A DNA stretch of 64,000 nt, from the NCBI RefSeq assembly GCF_037975245.1, contig NC_092565.1, forward strand, positions 19,686,499-19,750,498, in the 5' to 3' direction. The position numbers and the translations under genes are program-made. The DNA is from Apostichopus japonicus (Eukaryota > Echinodermata > Holothuroidea > Aspidochirotida > Stichopodidae). The notes beneath the pieces are model-generated. The model worked only from the letters and a program-made list of their open reading frames with translations. It searched no databases and had not been told where the DNA came from. The stretch's first letter is position 1; each line of letters begins with the position of its first letter. This document shows, one piece after another, positions 8,039-23,900 of the stretch.

Positions 8039-8204
8039 GGGGTTAATCAACGGTCTAGCGTGCGTTACTCACAGGATTAATGCACGATCGGGGGATAATG
8101 CAAGCGATGCACGAGGGCGGAGCCCGAGTGCATCCAGCGATAGCATTAACACCCGGAGTGCATTAATCATGTGAGTAACGCACGCTAGACCGTTGATTAA
8201 CCCC
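8039..8204. repeat. 166-bp near-perfect palindrome
   Basis: Arms 8039-8085 and 8158-8204 (47 bp each) are complementary at 46 of 47 positions, and the 72-base centre contains further nested complementarity (GATGCAC with GTGCATC, TAATGC with GCATTA). A fragment of the same arm (GTGCGTTACTCACAGGATTA) recurs at 20109-20128, on the other side of the transposon block. Likely a hairpin-type MITE. Confidence 0.7.
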
Positions 8205-9842
8205 GTTCATTCATACGCAGGCGCGTATCCAGGATTTTCTAACCCGGGGGGGGGGGGGGGGCGCGAATTACTATCAGAGCCGTATAGAGAGAGAGTTTGG
8301 CCAACCATGTAACCGATTTGGATTGGTCGAGAGGGAAAACGCCCACACAGGGTGGTAAAATAGGTCCACTTGAAAACTTTTTAGCAGGCGACACGCATAC
8401 TCACAGTGTATAGACTATCGTTTGTGTACACGAAAAAGTACGAAATTATGAAAGAAATGGTGCTGGGGATGCTGCAATCGGTCAGAACATGGATATTGTT
8501 GTTTGATTTTCCGACTGACCATAAAAGAAGAGGAATTTTTTGGAAGTAGAAAGAACAAGATGGAGATCTAATGAAAAAAAGTCTGTGTAGCCTAGGCCCA
8601 TACTAGCCATAGGCCCTAGTGTAATACGAGTAATGTACAAGCAATGCGAGAATTTTACGTTCAGACTGGTTTCTGTAATTACATGCATGGCTATTCTCTC
8701 TCGTTTTACGATCCACAAATTCGATTTCATTATGCCAGCTCTTCTACTGTAATCATAGGCATGGCAGTTTCAGTCGCACATATAGTTATCCTAATTCCTA
8801 GTTATTGTATGCCTAGGCTATGCCTAGCCTAAAAAAGTATCACTTTTAGTTTAATGTAAAAGGGTGGGCTAGCCTCTAGGCATCACGTAAAGCCCTAATC
8901 CTGAGTTAAGCCCGAAGCATAAGTTAAGCCTGGGCTTAATTAGACCTGGACCATTCTTGCTATTACTACAACTGTTATAGCACATTACATAATATGGCAC
9001 AGTATAAGGCCCAATTAAACTAGGTCTATGGAAAACAAAGTAGCCTCGGCCTAAACTAGTTAGGCTAGGTCTATACTCATTGGCAACTTGTGTACACATA
9101 CAGGCCTAATTATATAGACCCTTTTAGTATGCCATAAACAAGTGCCCAAATGGTTAAATGATCTTGGTTTGTGTTAATTGTCAGCATTGGCCTAGCCTTT
9201 TTAGGCTAACATGAATTCAGCCTAATATTTTCTTCTTCAAAAGTATAGCCTAGGCCTTGGTTTAATTTGGATGCAGTCAACTATCATTTATCAAAGTTGC
9301 ATCAGTACCTCCTTATTCCCTTAGTTGACACCCACATTGACGATTGAAGTTAAAAAAAATCTTTTTAAATTATCTTTAGACAGTAAATTTTAACTCCCTG
9401 AATTTCAGGACTTTTTTTACAAATCAAAGGTGACATGTGCTCTGAAGAAAAACTCCTAACATAAGAAGCCACAGTTAGCAGACTGTGATAAAGACAAACC
9501 TGGTGAGTGACTACTAGACTGAAATCCAGTTCCTGCAACCACAGCAATAAAGTCTTTGTTTTAATCAATGCACTTGTGTGTTTGAAACTTTCAAATGGAC
9601 ACTCAATGGCAGTTGGTTAAGATATAAGGTTTTACCTTCATCATGGAGAGTTGAAGGGAATCTGCCTCATCATCTGAATAATGGACTCAAGGATAGCAAC
9701 AAATCATGATTGGATAATGATTTTGAGCAAGTAAATATCAAGCAATTTGAAAGTTTGTATTATTTTTTTACATATTATTTAAGCTGTTTAGCTCACACAC
9801 AAGCAAATGATCAAGTGACAACAACCGATGCAGTATATTTAA

Positions 9843-10199
9843 AGGTATTGAAGACTTGCCCTAAACCGCATGGTCGCGCTCTGAAAAAGTTTACTTTCCG
9901 TTGCTTGCAAGTGAATTTTTTTTTTGTGTCGCTACAAAATGCAGACAGTAATGAAACCTGATACCTTGTTATCTTTTATCTAGACCTGAGATGTCCACGC
10001 TGCTATGTGCACTGTGTTGTGGGTATTGACTGTGATGTTTGTATTGACTTTACACTAATGTCTATTTACAGATGGTAGCAAGCTGTGTGTGTATTTTCTG
10101 GGATCAATGGTGGTGTCTAACACTTCTGTTACACCGCATTCGAAACTAGGTCCGATAACCGGCATGAGACGTTTCTTTGTGCGGGAGTCTCCACACCCT
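9843..10199. mobile_element. TTAA-flanked MITE, copy 2 (inside element A)
   Basis: This 357-bp copy has perfect TTAA on both sides (9839-9842 and 10200-10203). It begins AGGTATTGAAGACTTGC and ends GGAGTCTCCACACCCT. It defines the target site of the family and shows that it inserted after element A was in place. Confidence 0.8.
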
Positions 10200-10719
10200 T
10201 TAAGGAGAAGTATTTATATCCCATTAATAGAGAAAGAATTATGTTTCAATTGGTAGCATGCAACTTAAAAATTTGCAAACATTAGATACAATCAAACAAT
10301 AACAAGGTTCATTTACAAGGTAATCTATTGCCCTTTATTTCACCTTAGTCTGTCACATCAGAAGGTCACAGCTTTCAATAATTATACAAACAAATTCTCT
10401 TGATGGGTGCTTCGTTAGATTCCTGCAATTTTCAAGTTTATCAATGTAATAAGTTCTGAATGTGGCAATGTGGAGAAGCTTTGGGATAATCTGTGGATAA
10501 GACTGCCAGACTATCAACAAGATTCCACATCCATGCAACTCCAACTGCTTCCTTCACCTCCTTGCAGATGTACCACATGTCCAAAGAAATGTCAGCATTG
10601 GTTAATGTAATTAAAATCTGGCTTCCTCCTGAGCTGGCAAATACACATGAATTGTCAAGTACAGAGGTCAGTGTGAAACCACTGAAAGATCTTCTCAGCT
10701 TTCAAGAAAACAAAGACTT

Positions 10720-11125
10720 GAAGCCAAATTGACAGAGGCCACACTGATACCATTCCACTCTCATAAGATGAAGGTATCACACACACTTCATTTTGCTTCT
10801 GTGATGCAGTGCCTGGTAGACTGTGAGGGTCACCCAATGGATGTTTTAACAACTGCCTGGTTTATAGAGCTCTGCAACAGATAAGTCATCCTAATGTCTA
10901 GTCGTCATCCTGTCATGGCCTTGAGCAAGTTGAACCCACTTCAACACAAAGCAGCTATTGAATTCTTGTCTAGGTACTGTCAAATCCACATCACCATCAT
11001 TGCTGGTTCCAGCTACGCTGACCATAATAAAAGAGTACAATGAGGGTTTTTTAATTCACCCAACAGAGCTTGCATTCCAGTACCTTTGGGCAGCTGAAAA
11101 GATGTTCAGAAATTGTTATATATGA
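10720..11125 (+). pseudogene. decayed P/THAP9-like transposase fragment
   Basis: Two plus-strand reading stretches resemble parts of P-element/THAP9 transposases from memory of the family: 10720-10880 (contains LIPFHSHKMKVSHTL, like the K-M-K-V region) and 11033-11125 (contains GFLIHPTELAFQYLWAAEKM, like the C-terminal G-G-L-x-x-P-S...E-x-x-F segment). They are separated by stops and frame changes, so the gene is dead or this is an incomplete view of its exons. Position inside element A with P-type ends supports the call. The similarity is weak and not verified by alignment. Confidence 0.45.
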
Positions 11126-11784
11126 GTGTGTTTGTATGCATGCATATGTGTGATTTTCTTGCTTTACAGAACAGCTCCATTTTGATAAGCTATGTAACGT
11201 GGAAACCTGCCAATCATATGTTAGAAATAGGACAGGCTGAAACGATTCTTAAATGGAAAGCTTAACGACTTCTTGCATTTTTATACATCACTGTTCAGGT
11301 AAGGCCAGTAAGGGCAGTATGAAGAATAAGTAACAATTAATAATTATCATTATGGCCATTTGCTGTCTGCATAATAACAAACTGAATGATGTCATCAGCC
11401 CTGTGCACAGTTGACAACCCTGACAAGTAGGCACACTATGTCAGTGTGATCCATGAAACCTTATTAAGGACATGACCTTATAGTATATATGTTAATGGAA
11501 AATACATAAGCTACAACATACACCAGTCTTCAGTTGTTGCAGGTTTTCTTTTTCTCGACAGACCCATTCAATCTGTTGCACCTACTATAGCCTAGTACTA
11601 CATTCCTGAGAAATTAACACCACAATATCAGTCTTAGGTTTGCCCACAGACTCCCAACTATTGCTAACTCCTACACTCAAGTATATAGTTTAGTTTAGTA
11701 GAAAAAAAGACCAGGAGAGACATTCAAGTCCCCATTAAGGACCCTAAGGCTATATGAGAGGAATAAAACCGAGGCCATCAAATG

Positions 11785-12005
11785 TCATACCCAATTACAA
11801 TGCTTAATGTACTCATCCAAAGTATTCTTAAACCCATTCACACTACTTGCAATTCAACCTTCTCAGGCAAACCATTCCATCCATTCACAACCCTTGTATA
11901 AGTTGTATTAGACTTTAGAGAAAAAGTTATGCCGAATATTAATCCTACTATGTAACTTCTGGAGTTTAATACAATGACCTCTGGTACAACTTCTTTTTGG
12001 CAAAC
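11785..12005 (-). pseudogene. LINE reverse-transcriptase C-terminal remnant
   Basis: On the minus strand three frames together give the classic C-terminal end of non-LTR retrotransposon ORF2: RGHCIKLQKLHSRINIRHNF, then RVVNGWNGLPEKVE, then SSVNGFKNTLDEYIKHC. The frame changes and an in-frame stop show it is inactive. It is nested in element A. The clade (CR1, L2 or similar) cannot be told from this piece. Confidence 0.7.
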
Positions 12006-12518
12006 CTGAAAAGATCAGTGAAGCATAAATTGTCATTTTATGTGTAGGCCTACTTAATTTAATTGAAGGATCTATTAATGTAGGCCTGATGCTATAGTTG
12101 TGCGTCTGTAATCTAGCCTAGCCAGGACTGTGATGTGTGCTTTTCGTTTGTATGACTTAAGTAGGACTAGTAGTATGAGGCGTAAAATAAAACAAGTGTA
12201 ATGACAGGTTTTCAGCTAGTTTTCTATGCATTTCAGGTGTGAAGATAAACGTAAATGTCATTAACTAACGCATACTCTAATTCATTACCTGATATCCATT
12301 TTGTTCCTCGTATGCCTGTCAAAATCTGACATTCTGAGTCGCTTCGTTTGTTCGCAACGAGCACAGTGTGCAAAGCTGCTATATATTGTGTGTGGTGTTT
12401 TTCGTGTTTCGCGCAACTGGTAACGACAACTGGACCTATTTTGATGCCCATGGTTTGCGTGTGACGTCACAAATCGCCAGTTGGCCAAACTCTCTCTATA
12501 TACGGCTCTCATTACTAT

Positions 12519-15500
12519 CAGAGCCTTATATAGAGAGAGTTGCGACAACTCGGGTCCCGGAATTTTCGATCACGTGACCTCATGGCACCATTTTGGGGCC
12601 AACTAATTCTGCAACAACGTACGTTCGAGCAGTCAGCATATGCGCTGCCATCACAAAATGCCTGGCTGTTCAGCGTGGGGCTGTTCAAATCGTCCCGAAA
12701 ACGGTTCAAAACTTTTCAGATTCCCAACAAACCTAGATAGGAGGAAAACATGGGAGGCAAAAGTAAACAGGCTTCACTGGAAGGCGAACTCCAATCACAA
12801 ACTTTGTGATGTGAGTACTTCACCTAGGCCTAGTACAATGAACTAAGATTCGTAACACTAGGCCTAGCCTAGTCCATAACCACAGGGATGTAAGTCTTCC
12901 GTATTTTTACGGAAATCCGTTTTTTTTTTTAATTCCAATAAAGTTCCACAAAATTGTACAAATATCAAATACACAACGCGGCAAAAATGCCTGGCCCGTT
13001 GCAGCAAGCTAACTTCAATTTTCACTCATCGATCAACCAAAATACCATTTCCTGTTACACATCGCATTGCACTGTACAACATTGTGTGTGCCATGTGAAC
13101 ATCGTTGCGTACGTGCGAACTTCAAATCGCCATAGCTCATTTCTGTCGTTGAAAAACCTTGCCTAATTCACGTTGATTCGTAACTGCTGGTGCTCGACAT
13201 AAGTTTCGGAAATAACGCTTGTGATATTTGTGAGCGGGTAAATCTACGGGATACGCATATGAGAGTCGATATTCGTGATCGCTTTCAAATGTGAGACTGT
13301 TTTTTATTCCGGATTTCGCTGCGACGTATTCGTTACTTGGAGCTAGCCTAACATAACGATAGTGTGTAAGTAGTCAGAACTAGGGGTATGATGTGTTAGA
13401 GCGCTAATATACTTTTGAGCTAGCCTAACATGACGATAGTGCGTAAGTATTCAGAGCTAGGAGTAGGATGCGTTAGGACGACATTTCCCCGGTTTCTCCG
13501 AATAGTTTCCGGGTTTTTTTTGGCTGCACTTACATCCCTGATAACCAGGACTGTGGGTTACACCACACAGTCCTTACAGCTATGTATGGTGCACTGTGCA
13601 GTGTACATACACGCATAGTTAACATCACAGAAAACAGCATAAATTTCAGGCATGAAAATGGTCTATTTTTAACAAGTTCTGATCAAGAAAGTTGCGATGT
13701 TGGGATGAGATCTGTTATAAGGTGCATAAAAATATCTCTGCAAAGTTTAGTGGGTATATTCCTTAAATTGAAGGCTCCAGCGTGGCAAGACAAATCGGGG
13801 ATCTACGAAGCACAGTGTGCAATACAAATCACCAAGGGCTAGCCTAGCCCCCTAATGAAAAACTGCTTGGCTCCATTGAGTCATGAGCTTGTTCGGATTA
13901 CTATTTATGAAAATTTGGGTGGCGATCTGGCAGACCATTGAAATGATTAATCATTCTGCTTTGCACTTGATGATTTGAATTGAACTGGTCCAGAACTCCA
14001 CTATCTTTTATGAAATAATATTGAAAAATTAGGTTACTAAAATATCACTGTAGGCTAGGTAAAAATATTTCCTAGAACATTGTGTCCTGTTAGAGGGTAG
14101 CAGGTAAAACTAACAGAGTCAACTGAAAACCATAGGCCAAATTAGGCTCAGGAATCATGTTTGTCCATGTCATACATAGGTACGGTATACAGATCCTAAT
14201 TCACATTCTTACAACCGGGCAGTTCCAAGCAAAAGAGGACATAAACCCAGGAAATTCAATTTGACTGAGCCTAGGCCTAGCATTTTACCATGGTTGGCGG
14301 GCAACTCACCCCCCCCCCCCCAGCAATCCCCCCCAAAAGAAAACTTCTCTAATTTTCGACTTCTGACAACATATTTATGCTTCTGTTGGGGGAGGGGTTG
14401 TCCGGGGGGTGTTGTCTGGTCACGATTACCTTATCCATTAATAATAGAAGCCCATGCCTAGTAATAGAGGCTCAATTGGTATTTTGAAGAATTTCTGACT
14501 TTTTGGATCCTATAGTATATAGATGCAGCTTTTTCAAGTTATTAGACATAAAATTCGTAGATAAAAGCCTGACTCTCATACAAAAATATTCTGAAGTAGA
14601 TCTTTTCAAATTCCAGCAGCAGCTTAGTTCTCATAACGCTGAAATATCCTACTCACATATACCATATATTTGCGATGTGAGTTCCAGATTAGTGTAAATT
14701 CCTTACAGCACCCAGTTTGGATCATATTATGGTGGTAAAGTCCTGTCAGCTGCAATTTATTATTCGTATTTCATACATTTGAAATAAAGTGTTGCATGAA
14801 AATCTTCATTTGTTTTACTTTAGTATTTGTCTGTTTACTCTTTGTCTGTTTAAATTGTATTTTTTACTGGACTTATGGGTTACACATCTTAAACGTGTTA
14901 AGGCATAAATGTGTAATGCCTGGTAGGAATTCTAGATATACTTCCACAATTTTGTCCGTATATACTGTAAATGCCCTTCCCTTGCCCTATTTCATTGCCC
15001 TATTTCCCGGCAGAGAGTTATATTAAACAGATATGCAGAGGATTGTGCAAGTAACCACAATGTAATCATGATTGTAATCACGATTACATTACAATGTAAT
15101 CGTAATCGATTACTTCAACTTTAGGCTGTAATCGTAATCGTAATCATACATTCTCAAGTAATCGTAATCGATTACATTCAGATGTAATCGCCCCAAACCT
15201 GATGTGATTGGTCCATTTAGTTACCATAGCAACCAATTTTCAAAGACCTAGCTTCATGATTCTGTGCAACATGTCAGTTCCAGTCACATGTCCAAATATC
15301 AACTTCATCAGCCATTGCTAGCTCAAGTTACAGTTAATCCCAATTTTGACCAATCACAGGCTTTGTTTGGTTACCATGGCAACAATGGAAGAATGTACAT
15401 TATTCCGCAACTGTGCAATATGTGTTACAATATGATATATAACCAGTCATAATACAATTTTACCGTACCAGAATATCAACTGTTGAATTTGGACTTCCAA

Positions 15501-15790
15501 ATGTGCCAACCTCATCCCCTTGAACTTGAGCGCAGCCAATCCCTCCCCCCCCCCCCCCCCCTCCCGTTCAACACTCGACGCCCTACTTACACAGCCTCGG
15601 CGCCCAAAAGCACCACAACATTATCAGGCCAAAAATAAAACCCAGAATCCCGCTCACACTTCTACAATGCCATCGAAAAATTCCCCTATCCACCTGAACG
15701 TCCATTCCCACACATACTGTATGTTGCCCATTTGGCCCCAAAATGGCGCCCAAATTTCAGTTGTCGCAACTCTCTCTATATAAGGCTCTG
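12519..15790. mobile_element. P-superfamily-like element B (3272 bp) with THAP exon
   Basis: Perfect 32-bp TIRs begin CAGAGCCTTATATAGAGAGA and continue through GTTGCGACAACT (12519-12550 and 15759-15790). The 8-bp ATTACTAT flanks both ends. A THAP-domain exon lies 140 bp inside the left end (12658-12810). The rest shows no intact transposase. It includes stretches of CCTAGG motifs, a TAATCGTAATCG-rich segment (about 15055-15190) and a C run near 15545. It is nearly identical to element C outside one internal block (13709-14788). Confidence 0.8.
12658..12810 (+). CDS. THAP zinc-finger exon of element B (partial)
   Basis: The ATG at 12658 opens 51 codons that form most of a THAP DNA-binding domain. 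C4 and C9 are the first metal ligands (MPGCSAWGCSN), then KLFRFP, an invariant-type tryptophan (RRKTWEAKV), and C50 in HKLCD. The exon stops at GAT followed by the donor GTGAGT (12811), just before the expected C-x2-H histidine, so the next exon must supply it. I could not find that exon. THAP domains bind DNA and form the N-terminus of P-type transposases, where they recognise the element's ends. An upstream in-frame ATG at 12640 would add six residues; starting at MPGC matches the family. Confidence 0.75.
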
Positions 15791-15830
15791 ATTACTATCA
15801 GAGCCTTATATAGAGAGAGTTGCGACAACT
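15759..15830. repeat. 72-bp palindrome at the B/C junction with shared duplication
   Basis: The right TIR of B (15759-15790) and left TIR of C (15799-15830) are inverted around one shared copy of ATTACTAT (15791-15798), giving two 32-bp arms around an 8-bp centre. The same 8-mer also occurs at 8267-8274, 12511-12518 and 18230-18237, once at every element border. Confidence 0.85.
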
Positions 15831-18229
15831 CGGGTCCCGGAATTTTCGATCACGTGACATCATGGCACCATTTTGGGGCCAACTAATTCTGGCCGTATGA
15901 TCGACAACAACGTACGCAGTCAACATCTGCGCTGCCATCACAAAATGCCTGGCTGTTCAGCGTTGGGCTGTTCAAATCGACCCGAAAACGGTTCAAAACT
16001 TTTCAGATTCCCAACAAACCTAGATAGGAGGAAAACATGGGAGGCAAAAGTAAACAGGCTTCACTGGAAGGCGAACTCCAATCACAAACTTTGTGATGTG
16101 AGTACTTCACCTAGGCCTAGTACAATGAACTAAGATTCGTAACACTAGGCCTAGCCTAGTCCATAACCACAGGGATGTAAATCTTCCGTATTTTTACGGA
16201 TATCCGGTTTTTTTTTAATTCCAATAAAGTTCCACAAAATTGTACAAATATCAAATACACAACGCGGCAAAAATGCCTGGCCCGTTGCAGCAAGCTAACT
16301 TCAATTTTCACTCATCGATCAACCAAAATACCATTTCCTGTTACACATCGCATTGCACTGTACAACATTGTGTGTGCCATGTGAACATCGTTGCGTACGT
16401 GCGAACTTCAAATCGCCATAGCTCATTTCTGTCGTTGAAAAACCTTGCCTAATTCACGTTGATTCGTAACTGCTGGTGCTCGACATAAGTTTCGGAAATA
16501 ACGCTTGTGATATTTGTGAGCGGCTAAATCTACGGGATACGCATATGATAGTCGATATTCGTGATCGCTTTCAAATGTGAGACTGTTTTTTATTCCGGAT
16601 TTCGCTGCGACGTATTCGTTACTTGGAGCTAGCCTAACATAACGATAGTGTGTAAGTAGTCAGAACTAGGGGTATGATGTGTTAGAGCGCTAATACTTTT
16701 GAGCTAGCCTAACATAACGATAGTTCGTAAGTATTCAGAGCTAGGAGTAGGATGCGTTAGGACGACATTCCCCCGTTTTCTCCGAATAGTTTTCCGGGTT
16801 TTTTTTGGCTGCACTTACATCCCTGATAACCAGGACTGTGGGTTACACCACACAGTCCTTACAGCTATGTATGGTGCACTGTGCAGTGTACATACACGCA
16901 TAGTTAACATCACAGAAAACAGAGCATAAATTTCAGGCATGAAAATGGTCTATTTTTAACAAGTTCTGATCAGGAAAGTTGCGATGTTGGGATGAGATTT
17001 TTTATCACCTGAATTATTCTGTTCAAAAAAATCACTGCAAATTAAGTATTTTGGTGGATCAGAATTTGCTTTACCAGAGTTGACCACTTTTTGATGAAAA
17101 TAATTTACTTTTATTTTGGCCTTCCATGTCCCATGTACTGTGGAATGCCCCATTTCAAAGCTGTTTAGTTTTATTTTGGTGTTATAATGTAAAACAGTTT
17201 TTAGTTTTGCTGCTATGCAGAAATTATTAGTTTACAAAATATAGTGTTGCATGAAAATCTTCATTTGTTTTACTTTAGTATTTGTCTGTTTACTCTTTGT
17301 CTGTTTAAAATGTATTTTTTACTGGACTTATGGGTTACACATCTTAAACGTGTTAAGGCATAAATGTGTAATGCCTGGTAGGAATTGTTGATACACTTCC
17401 ACAATTTTGTCCGTATATACTGTAAATGCCCTTCCCTTGCCCTATTTCATTGCCCTATTTCCCGGCAGAGAGTTATATTAAACAGATATGCAGAGGATTG
17501 TGCAAGTAACCACAATGTAATCATGATTGTAATCACGATTACATTACAATGTAATCGATTACTTCAACTTTAGGCTGTAATCGTAATCATACATTCTCAA
17601 GTAATCGTAATCGATTACATTCAGATGTAATCGCCCCAAGCCTGATGTGATTGGTCCATTTAGTTACCATAGCAACCAATTTTCAAAGACCTAGCTTCAT
17701 GATTCTGTGCACCATGTCAGTACCAGTCACATGTCCAAATATCAACTTCATCAGCCATTGCTAGCTCAAGTTACAGTTAATCCCAGTTTTGACCAATCAC
17801 AGGCTTTGTTTGGTTACCATGGCAACAATGGAAGAATGTACATTATTCCGCAACTGTGCAATATGTGTTACAATATGATATATAACCAGTCATAATACAA
17901 TTTTACCGTACCAGAATATCAACTGTTGAATTTGGACTTCCAAATGTGCCAACCTCATCCCCTTGAACTTGAGCGCAGCCAATCCCTCCCCCCCCCCCCC
18001 TCCCGTTCGACACTCGACGCCTTACTTACACAGCCTCGGCGCCCAAAAGCACCACAACTTTATCAGGCCAAAAATAAAACCCAGAATCCCGCTCACACTT
18101 CTACAATGCCATCGAAAAATTCCCCTATCCACCTGAACGCCCATTCCCACACATACTGTATGTTGCCCATTTGGCCCCAAAATGGCGCCCAAATTTCAGT
18201 TGTCGCAACTCTCTCTATATAAGGCTCTG
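15799..18229. mobile_element. P-superfamily-like element C (2431 bp) with THAP exon
   Basis: It has the same orientation and the same TIRs as element B and is bordered by ATTACTAT at both ends. The left 1.2 kb and right 1.0 kb match B nearly base for base. In between, B has 1080 bp (13709-14788) where C has about 245 bp of different sequence (16998-17241), so C is not a simple recent tandem copy of the whole of B. No intact transposase is present. Confidence 0.8.
15945..16097 (+). CDS. THAP zinc-finger exon of element C (partial)
   Basis: A 51-codon exon matching the one in element B except for W7 to L (MPGCSALGCSN), ending at the same GAT|GTGAGT donor. The conserved C4, C9, tryptophan and C50 remain. 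Reading-frame conservation in both copies suggests recent activity or selection, but the copies may simply be too young to have decayed. The downstream exon carrying the last THAP histidine and any catalytic domain is not found in C. Confidence 0.7.
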
Positions 18230-18237
18230 ATTACTAT

Positions 18238-18330
18238 CTAAGCGGAGCGCCACCATCGGTTGGCGCGGAGCGTACAAGAAAATTTCTGGTTTTGATACCC
18301 CCCAGATCACCGGAAATGGCACTTCTCGGG
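18238..18330 (+). repeat. dispersed repeat, copy 1 (P-cluster target)
   Basis: Begins CTAAGCGGAGCGCCACCATC and continues through GGCGCGGAGCGTACAAGAAAA. Copies are at 19449-19550 (direct) and 59742-59834 (inverted). The two other copies carry ACTATCTAAGCG uninterrupted, so this copy appears to be the one split by the P-like insertions. Confidence 0.7.
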
Positions 18331-20948: not shown

Positions 20949-23900
20949 ATGCCGTTTGATTTCAGAAGGTACAAGCTATTCTGTGTTTTGGGGGTCTAAG
21001 TTTCAATATGTTGTTACACTTACAGACAGCGTCAATCCATCCTAAGTTAGGCTACATCAGCCCGTATGCCCGGCTGCAATCCGTTGTAAATTAGGCCCTT
21101 GCACCTGTCCATGTAAACTTGGCAGTGTTTGCTATAGACAAACTTAAGTCTAAGACTTTTAACTGTTTAATGTAGTTCTCATGTTTAGGCATATGACTAT
21201 TGTCAATTCACCTTCGACGTGGACAGAATGGAAACATAATAACTGATTGGTAAATGGTAACCTAACTAAGTAAGGCTTCATTTCAATTGCATCAGTTAGG
21301 CCTAGACCTGTGATGTGAGTTCAAGTGGCTACACTTGAGCTCAAGTAGGCCAGGCTGTGAAAGTCAATTGTTGCACAATTGTCAATATATGGATGAAAAA
21401 ACCAACCTCTAATATCGAAAACAGCTGGGAACTGACATTGTTATGATTATGGGTTTTTCTACTCTAATGTCAGCCCAGGCCTACAGACATGTGAAATATA
21501 TATTATGCAGATTGCTATCACATCAAATTTGTGTTGCCATAAAATAGCATAAAGGCATTGAAGACTCGCCCCAAACCGTGTGCCGCCCTCTGAAAAAGTT
21601 AACTTTCCGTTGCTTGCAAGTGAAGTTTTTTTGGCATAGCTGTCGAATACCCCACGTTATTGAAACTTAACCAAATTAGGTGCTACGGGCTACAAGAGAA
21701 AAGTGGTAGATGGCGCTAACTTATTTACGGATAGGCTTAAGTTCTAACTTATTTACGGATAGGCTTAAGTTCCACAGTGCATTTTTTTAAATTAATTTTA
21801 CGTGTATGTTCAGGTTAGGGGTTAGGGTACCCGTAGCCCGTTGGATGTCACCCCAGACCTTACGTTTTACTTTACTTTAAAAACATTTTTGTGTATACTT
21901 TAATATAAAGAATGACTTTGTAGCCCGTTGGCTCGTAGCCAATAAATTCTTCAAATCCCATTCCACAACTTCTGACTTCGTAGCCCGTTGGTTCGTCGCC
22001 ACTAAATACTTCAACCCCCATTCCACCACTTCTGACTTCGTAGCCCGTTGGGTTTACTTAAAAACAAAGCTAGACCCAGTAGCCCATTGGATGTCGCTCC
22101 AGTTCCCCACGTTCCTGTTGGATGTCACTCCACATCTTCAGGCTTTACTTTCCTTTACAGAATGACTGCGTAGCCTGTTGGTTCGTCGGCAACAGAAACA
22201 AAAACGGACCACGTACCCCGTTGGATATCTCCCGTTTTACAAGTATATGCATTGTACATTCGAAAAAAGGAAAAATATCAAAGTCCAATAATCTTAACAA
22301 TACTATAATAGCGCCATCTACTCAAGCACAATATAAGGCTGCGTTGGACGTTGTTCGTCTCCGTCAAAACCACAATCTCGGATCCAGCGGGGTATTCTGC
22401 AGCTACTCCATTTTTTTCTTGTTGCTACAAAATGCAGACAGTAATGAAACGTGATACCTTGCTATCTTTTATCTGGACCTGAGATGTCCATTGCTGCTAT
22501 GTACTGTGTTGTGTGTATTGACCGTAGCTGCATGTATTGACTGTACACTAGTGTCTAATTACCGACGGTAGCAAGCTGTGTGTGTATTTTCTGGGATCGA
22601 TAGTGGTGTCTAACACTTCTGTTACACCTCATTCGAAACTAGGTCAGATTACAGCATCAGTCTTTGATACGCGAGTCTTCCCTCCCTTTAATGTAAACCA
22701 GCTTTAGTGATGAAAATCCTGAATTTTATCAAAATAATTAGACCTGTATGTTGTCCAGTAATCCTTGTTTTGTTCATTGATTAACCCTATCTTTCCATTG
22801 ATGAACTTTGATAATCATAGTCCATTTACAAGTGAAAATATCAGTGTATCAGCCTAAAATCCATGGTTATTGGGGATAAGCCTGGTTTTGGGGTGATTGT
22901 GAACACAGAACCAATGGTTCATCAGCAAACATGTGTGTCTACAAGCCATAGTGGGGGTGGGGGTGAGGGAGGGGGGTGGGGGTGAGGAGAGTGAGGGATG
23001 GATGGAGGAAAGGCACTAATGACATTAAACCTCGCCCTTAAACATGGCTGTAGTGTATCCAAGAAAAGGGGGGTATATAACTTACCTTGCAGTAAAAAAT
23101 AAGAGCAATTTCAGACAGATAATATATCATTACTGGTGACCATGTACATAACAAGAGTAATTTATATAAGATCTAGAAAATTCCCCTTGTTAAACATCCA
23201 AAACCATCTACATGCCATTGCTTGCATGTTTGGTCCTGTGGTGTAGGGCCACACATGTGCAACCATGATGTGGTAGAAATCTTTGTCTACCCTAACAAGG
23301 GAACTTTGAACTTGAATAGAAATTGCTTGTTTAGTAACATAATGACAGTATCACCTCACCAAAAGGTGTTTCACATTTTAGACATTTTAGACACAAAGCA
23401 CTGCATGTATATTGTGATACATAAATCTTGTTTGAACTGCTTGCACAAGGTGTAAGCAGCAACCTGCAGGACTTGACAATTGGCCTTCTCTCTCACTTAG
23501 GTAAGATATAAACCATACAGTAGTACCACTATGTAGCTCCAAAAGGTGAACAATTAATGTTGTCTCATTGGTATGCTGAAAAAGGCACTACAGCAAATGT
23601 TGTTCTCACATCAAAAAGATTTATTGTATGAAAACAGTGTCATACTTAAGAGACTTTTGTTGCTGTTACAGGCTAGATGTCTACAGGAAGATTCCAAAGG
23701 ACCTGACACAGCCAACCTATGCTGGGGCTGGAGGTGAGTTCTCTAAAATCTGAATATTTTTTAAAGCAGTTCATCAATTTTGCCCATTTGGGTTTACCAC
23801 CATCTCTCTACAATTTTTGTTCTCGAATATCAATGAATTATATCTTTTGACGTGTCATGAAAAACTCAACATTTTACCATGTTTTACCACTACACGTCCG

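Follow-up and report, generated by a model that had tools for sequence, protein, structure and literature searches.

How can three transposable elements come to share one target site duplication? This question is raised by a stretch of 64,000 nucleotides from the sea cucumber Apostichopus japonicus (RefSeq assembly GCF_037975245.1, contig NC_092565.1, positions 19,686,499 to 19,750,498), referred to here as the window, in which three P-like elements (A, B, and C) follow each other head to tail. An earlier note on this DNA had placed a copy of the 8-bp sequence ATTACTAT at every border, and all four copies were found exactly there (positions 8267, 12511, 15791, and 18230; Table 1). With nine occurrences in the window, five of them in addition to the four at the borders, versus a mean of 4.17 expected, ATTACTAT alone is not rare; what chance does not account for is its position directly against six inverted-repeat ends. 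Those ends are alike at 29 of 31 positions in A (4236 bp) and at 31 of 31 in both B (3272 bp) and C (2431 bp), and they come in two types, CAGAGCCG on A (G type) and CAGAGCCT on both B and C (T type). Very probably, the best explanation for such arrays is serial insertion at a target that renews itself, and the aim of the elements appears to be a host motif lying outside the duplicated 8 bp.

Junctions between neighboring elements

In the 671.6 Mb of genome scanned (in which L-numbers designate fetched loci and C-numbers genome contigs), element ends were found in 370 + 348 occurrences (≤2 mismatches), compared with none for the reversed-pattern control. Ends lying back to back, with a spacer of 0 to 30 bp, were seen at 46 places (control, 0), and at 45 of these the spacer measured exactly 8 bp; the only other junction, with a 27-bp spacer, is part of a footprint cluster. 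Relaxing the search to ≤3 mismatches raised the number of junctions to 115, versus 1 for the control. The check for other multi-element clusters that the earlier note had suggested thus turned out favorably, and the 8-bp spacing at 45 of 46 junctions supports its proposal that later copies had exactly entered an existing copy of the duplication.

Neighbors could be classified at 26 of the 45 junctions (the remaining 19 involve footprints or unclassified neighbors), yielding 13 head-to-tail, 8 tail-to-tail, and 5 head-to-head pairs; 3 of the 26 join a G-type to a T-type element. Since neighbors occur in both orientations, the junctions are not accounted for by a single inserted element that was multiplied by tandem duplication or unequal crossing-over, a very unlikely origin, even though B and C, similar and head to tail, would fit it. 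It would also suit two pairs of junctions on C16, located 80 to 180 kb apart (689559/769565, with 8-mers that are reverse complements, and 17529468/17708712, with the same 8-mer), which may have arisen by segmental duplication of entire arrays. However, 13 of the 26 classifiable junctions are inverted, arrays mix families and footprints, and B and C arose from a parent by different deletions (see below). Plain tandem duplication, which had been doubted from the start, is refuted as a general cause by the inverted and mixed junctions and may apply to single arrays.

On the outside of the arrays, 31 stretches were fetched; an element end was present in 20 of them (14 arrays) and absent in 11, and the inner 8-mer was found at all 20 ends. 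It likewise borders the outside of L033, L034, L041, and the array in the window. In 18 of the 20 arrays examined, the 8-mer within the array is identical to that at the outer borders and points the same way. L035 and L037 are the exceptions: here, the inner copy reads as the reverse complement of those at the outer borders, which suggests a recombination flip between inverted copies; end-to-end recombination, offered earlier as an alternative to insertion, is unnecessary in general and perhaps applies to these two loci. That stacks transpose as composite units, carrying their inner 8-mer along, is exceedingly improbable. Some inner 8-mers do reappear at loci far apart (GACACTAT, counted together with its complement, five times), but several of these lie within copies of one host repeat, the 8-mer matches the inner one at each of the 20 outer ends, and none of the 20 arrays examined has an outer duplication unlike the inner one, the two with an inverted inner 8-mer included.

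Matches to an excision footprint, defined as two end tips with 0 to 30 bp between their specified parts, number 291 genome-wide (control, 0); most of those fetched are flanked by 8-bp duplications, and many lie in stacks. At L039, five footprints are interspersed with six copies of ACCAGGAT, one of them altered. A second family, whose ends differ (TAGAGTTCC), has left footprints between identical 8-mers at L067 and between one intact and one altered 8-mer at L039 and L194. A dense footprint cluster at L091, containing TTGAGGAC and its reverse complement, has apparently been rearranged more than once. Similar arrays with other 8-mers and mixed families exist at dozens of places, and footprint arrays are just tens of bases long; the array in the window, seen here in assembled sequence, is thus almost certainly no assembly artifact.

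A host motif beside the duplication

The first set comprised 69 sites, and at 56 of these the two copies of the duplication agreed to within one mismatch. Removal of 22 sites with a poor duplication or with a flank containing an element end left 47, namely 34 sites outside a common dispersed repeat, 11 inside it, and 2 duplicates. On the basis of 44 sites outside this repeat that scored ≥4 (lower scorers were excluded), the sequence logo reads A(+7) n A(+9) G C G C C (C/A) (T/C) C(+17) (A/T), followed by a T-rich stretch. In summary, this yields the following target layout: duplication, 8 nucleotides, AGCGCC(C/A)(T/C)C, on one side only. At this fixed offset, a GCCMYC score of ≥5 of 6 was reached at 26 of the 34 sites outside the common repeat, the mean for the remaining offsets being 0.64, and the motif is present at the same offset at all 11 sites inside it. 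Among 20 held-out intact elements, the duplication was perfect in every case and the motif stood at the offset in 19, with an average of 0.90 at other offsets; a further element on C6, in the common dispersed repeat, also fits. Some sites share their context (L130 with L017/018, L152 and L160 with L081, and 19 sites in the common repeat). When 67 sites were merged by flank similarity, 44 contexts resulted, 35 of them with the motif; in contexts confined to the held-out set, it was found in 8 of 9 (binomial, about 1.5e-10).

Across the genome, there are 7015 occurrences of the 12-mer pattern ANAGCGCCMYCW, versus 314 of its reversed control, a ~22-fold excess. Nineteen of these places were inspected, of which L169 and L180 hold a footprint exactly where predicted and L183 contains an end tip whose partner is not clear. 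Most of the 19 have no obvious common flank, as for a host regulatory motif. Compared with the CTCF consensus, which we take to be CCASYAGRKGGCRS, the motif agrees in the GRKGGCGC part, has A or T where CTCF has A, and lacks the CC upstream, pointing to a partial resemblance to the CTCF core. Within A, B, C, and two C21 ends, the best motif scores were no better than those of shuffles, and Dada-like motif copies inside the elements (see below) were rejected on this ground.

Two motif-related observations stand apart. At position 159 of L184, a TAGAGTTCC-family footprint with the duplication CATTTAGG lies near the motif but out of the usual register. The window also contains a second copy of the target motif, ATAGCGCCATCT, at position 22308, with no element end adjoining it in the stretch inspected.

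Proposed growth of the stacks

The fixed-distance motif, the shared 8-mers, the occurrence of both orientations, the mixed families, and the stacked footprints are established at the level of sequence. In the mechanism that we propose, a P-superfamily transposase or a partner protein (the reader that we infer) would recognize the one-sided host motif A-n-AGCGCC-(C/A)(T/C)C-(A/T), and the element would be inserted such that the 8-bp duplication ends 8 nucleotides short of AGCGCC. Since the duplicated 8 bp do not include the motif, each insertion would rebuild a complete target, duplication plus motif, at its motif-side border, and the site could be hit again; elements arriving later, whether of this or another P-like family, would enter the rebuilt site with the same 8-mer, in either orientation. 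The site would also survive excision, which would leave a footprint of ~20 to 33 bp flanked by two 8-mer copies. Growth would proceed from the motif side, with the oldest unit farthest from it, and the order in the window would be A as the oldest unit, then B, and then C.

The decay of element ends was scored for 26 stretches, of which 12 were without an in-register motif plus an intact motif-side end and 3 had too few ends. In the 11 scorable arrays, the distal ends were worse in 7 (one of them, L091, with a doubtful register) and the proximal ends in 1, and 3 arrays were tied. In the window, A, the unit at the greatest distance from the motif, also shows the most wear at its ends, a fact known before polarity was tested. 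Three patterns used in a search for junctions with one decayed end returned 3, 1, and 2 places. The polarity predicted beforehand was observed in L225 and L226 (the register of the latter being truncated and its motif side assigned by eye), and L227, from a pattern added after the prediction, fits growth on the motif side. We have moderate confidence that the stacks grow on that side.

Several observations weigh against the explanation given above. Outside the common repeat, 8 of the 34 sites have a motif score of ≤4 (3 of them ≤3), and the held-out element at L150 is without the motif. The polarity prediction failed in L223, L224 gave no clear direction, and decay in L072 runs opposite to growth on the motif side. 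The divergence of intact neighbors was without polarity, the distal copy being more diverged in 5 arrays and less diverged in 3, mostly by few bases; ordering by such divergence was set aside as uninformative, the copies being too alike. As judged by eye, the motif-side unit itself is truncated in L066, L107, L115, and L226; deletions that truncate this unit or its duplication may end the growth of a stack. Finally, a rough count, based on about 34,000 target equivalents and an assumed 365 to 656 insertions (the strict pattern being matched by 10 of 48 sites), predicts 2 to 6 coincident pairs under uniform use of motif sites, versus the 45 junctions seen. Therefore, either site heat varies or occupied sites are favored. 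Without any motif, the same rough count predicts about 0.0001 to 0.0003 coincident pairs.

The excess of hits on occupied sites over the number expected if every motif site were used equally would agree with true self-targeting, in which the transposase recognizes the ends of a resident element and inserts into the adjoining duplication on either side, no host motif being needed; nested or double P insertions are known in Drosophila, singed-weak being a double one. We nevertheless regard self-targeting as distinctly unlikely, since the motif already accompanies elements that have host DNA to their left and right, ends far from the motif tend to be the more decayed, and TAGAGTTCC-family footprints, with their different ends, occupy some of the same stacks. 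The self-insertion raised in the earlier note was thus not borne out.

The elements of the window and related systems

By contrast with self-insertion, the assignment to the P superfamily has held. A, B, and C possess 31-bp terminal inverted repeats, the 8-bp target duplication is perfect in all held-out elements, matches to the THAP domain (PF05485) exceed the cutoff in B and C, and the excision footprints keep parts of both ends. A decayed THAP exon in A lies at a place matching those of B and C (a likeness judged by eye), and relatives on C21 and C19 start with MPCCAAWGCS (THAP exon). A relative of ~7 kb at C21:1208331-1215346 has A-type ends on both sides, the 8-bp duplication TTGAATGC, and a THAP exon start. 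A match to PF21787, the P-type RNase-H-like catalytic domain, is located at C21:1210892-1211287, within a 789-amino-acid frame of this element that we assume to form one gene with the THAP exon. A genome search for this transposase domain gave 45 matches, one of which (that on C21) was traced to both element ends, and none of which falls inside A, B, or C. Because of the THAP exons in B and C and the C21 relative with its A-type ends, duplication, and P-type domain, we place the elements in the P superfamily; A, B, and C are nonautonomous members. The Dada superfamily, characterized by insertion in small nuclear RNA or tRNA genes, a lack of terminal inverted repeats, and 6- to 7-bp duplications, was ruled out by the terminal inverted repeats and 8-bp duplications, no search for RNA genes at the targets being part of this comparison.

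The outer parts of B and C are alike (mostly 94 to 100% in repeat blocks, with 89% in one block-edge family), whereas their internal block differs. Genome searches with the B block and the C block rest on at least 40 or so matches each; among the matches listed, B's block is followed by C's in single copies on C17 (9067261-9068023, then 9068097-9068320) and C3 (6397124-6397772, then 6397770-6397971). By this comparison, B and C lost different stretches of one longer parent and are therefore separate internal-deletion derivatives of it.

The left flank of the array resembles those of L001 and L073 by eye; an ungapped comparison with them gave only 0.46 because the poly-G length varies. The 11 kept first-set sites inside the common dispersed repeat fall in the same repeat as this flank. 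Immediately left of the array, positions 8039 to 8204 contain a 47-bp inverted repeat (98%) with arms 72 bp apart.

Table 1. Features of the array and its borders (window coordinates)
Feature	Position	Strand	Basis
Left flank, host dispersed repeat housing the array	8215..8266	+	flanks alike by eye at L001, L073
ATTACTAT, outer duplication on the side distal to the motif	8267..8274	+	sequence
Element A, nonautonomous P-like, G-type ends	8275..12510	+	sequence, end comparison
Decayed THAP exon near left end of A	about 8450-8560	+	by eye
ATTACTAT separating A from B	12511..12518	+	sequence
Element B, T-type ends, internal-deletion derivative	12519..15790	+	sequence, repeat blocks
THAP-domain exon in B	12658..12810	+	Pfam PF05485, E 4.2e-6; 51-residue match
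ATTACTAT separating B from C	15791..15798	+	sequence
Element C, T-type ends, internal deletion unlike that of B	15799..18229	+	sequence, repeat blocks
THAP-domain exon in C	15945..16097	+	Pfam PF05485, E 8.1e-7
ATTACTAT adjoining the motif, predicted receiver of the next insertion	18230..18237	+	register from other sites
Target motif AGCGCCACCA, 8 nucleotides past the duplication	18246..18255	+	sequence; logo; held-out test

The P element of Drosophila encodes a THAP-domain protein and has 31-bp inverted ends, an 8-bp duplication, and 17-nucleotide staggered cleavage (PMC7776569). The first three are common to both systems, and the stagger leaves room for footprints such as those described here. 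The same review presents P transposition as not site specific, its consensus motif having been compiled from many insertions (PMC7776569), whereas here a one-sided motif outside the duplication fixes the insertion point. Zebrafish Pdre2, with its THAP9 transposase, is likewise P-like, and its THAP domain selects a motif absent from the element (PMC10983969); the available portion of that account describes neither a target motif nor arrays. The P elements of Anopheles and their miniature inverted-repeat derivatives (P-MITEs) resemble the present elements in end length (27 to 31 bp), perfect 8-bp duplications, and nonautonomous forms (PMC1562414) and differ in that no external target motif appears in the sections of that account covered. 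In the literature searched (subscription papers being covered in part), we found no report of P elements reinserting into one duplication or, in accounts available in part, of an external target motif for a P element.

P elements have long been studied as weakly selective; here, a P-superfamily group is placed to the base pair relative to an external motif, and this placement would account for same-site stacks without self-recognition. The system could serve as a test bed for the role of the THAP domain at the target, a question that is open for zebrafish THAP9, and the stacks provide a natural record of insertions in their order. Provided that the motif has a regulatory role, these elements have changed the neighborhoods of many regulatory sites again and again.

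By analogy, the closest parallels are Dada transposons and the arrays of casposons and clustered regularly interspaced short palindromic repeats (CRISPR). Dada is a sequence-directed DNA transposon that targets small nuclear RNA and tRNA genes and whose transposase is distantly like that of P (PMC3706591). Dada-U1A and U1B occur as tandem copies with the duplication between them, and a sequence at a fixed distance from the duplication, also present within the element's own subterminal repeats, is suspected to act in target recognition. Both systems thus show tandem copies with the duplication in between and, at a fixed distance from it, a sequence suspected of being recognized, whereas the motif described here stands in varied sequence and is not enriched in the elements over shuffles. 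In casposons and CRISPR adaptation, a leader outside the duplicated repeat is recognized, the leader-proximal repeat is duplicated, and the array grows on one side (PMC6614799). The recognition sequence outside the repeat is a mechanistic parallel, while the Cas1-type enzyme is unrelated to the P transposase and the system is prokaryotic. We speculate, giving the idea even chances, that a eukaryotic transposon group builds CRISPR-like, leader-proximal arrays, in which a host regulatory motif (possibly CTCF-type and 22-fold overrepresented) would be the leader, the 8-bp duplication the repeat, and the elements or footprints the spacers, so that successive visits of several P-like families to one site would be recorded in order.

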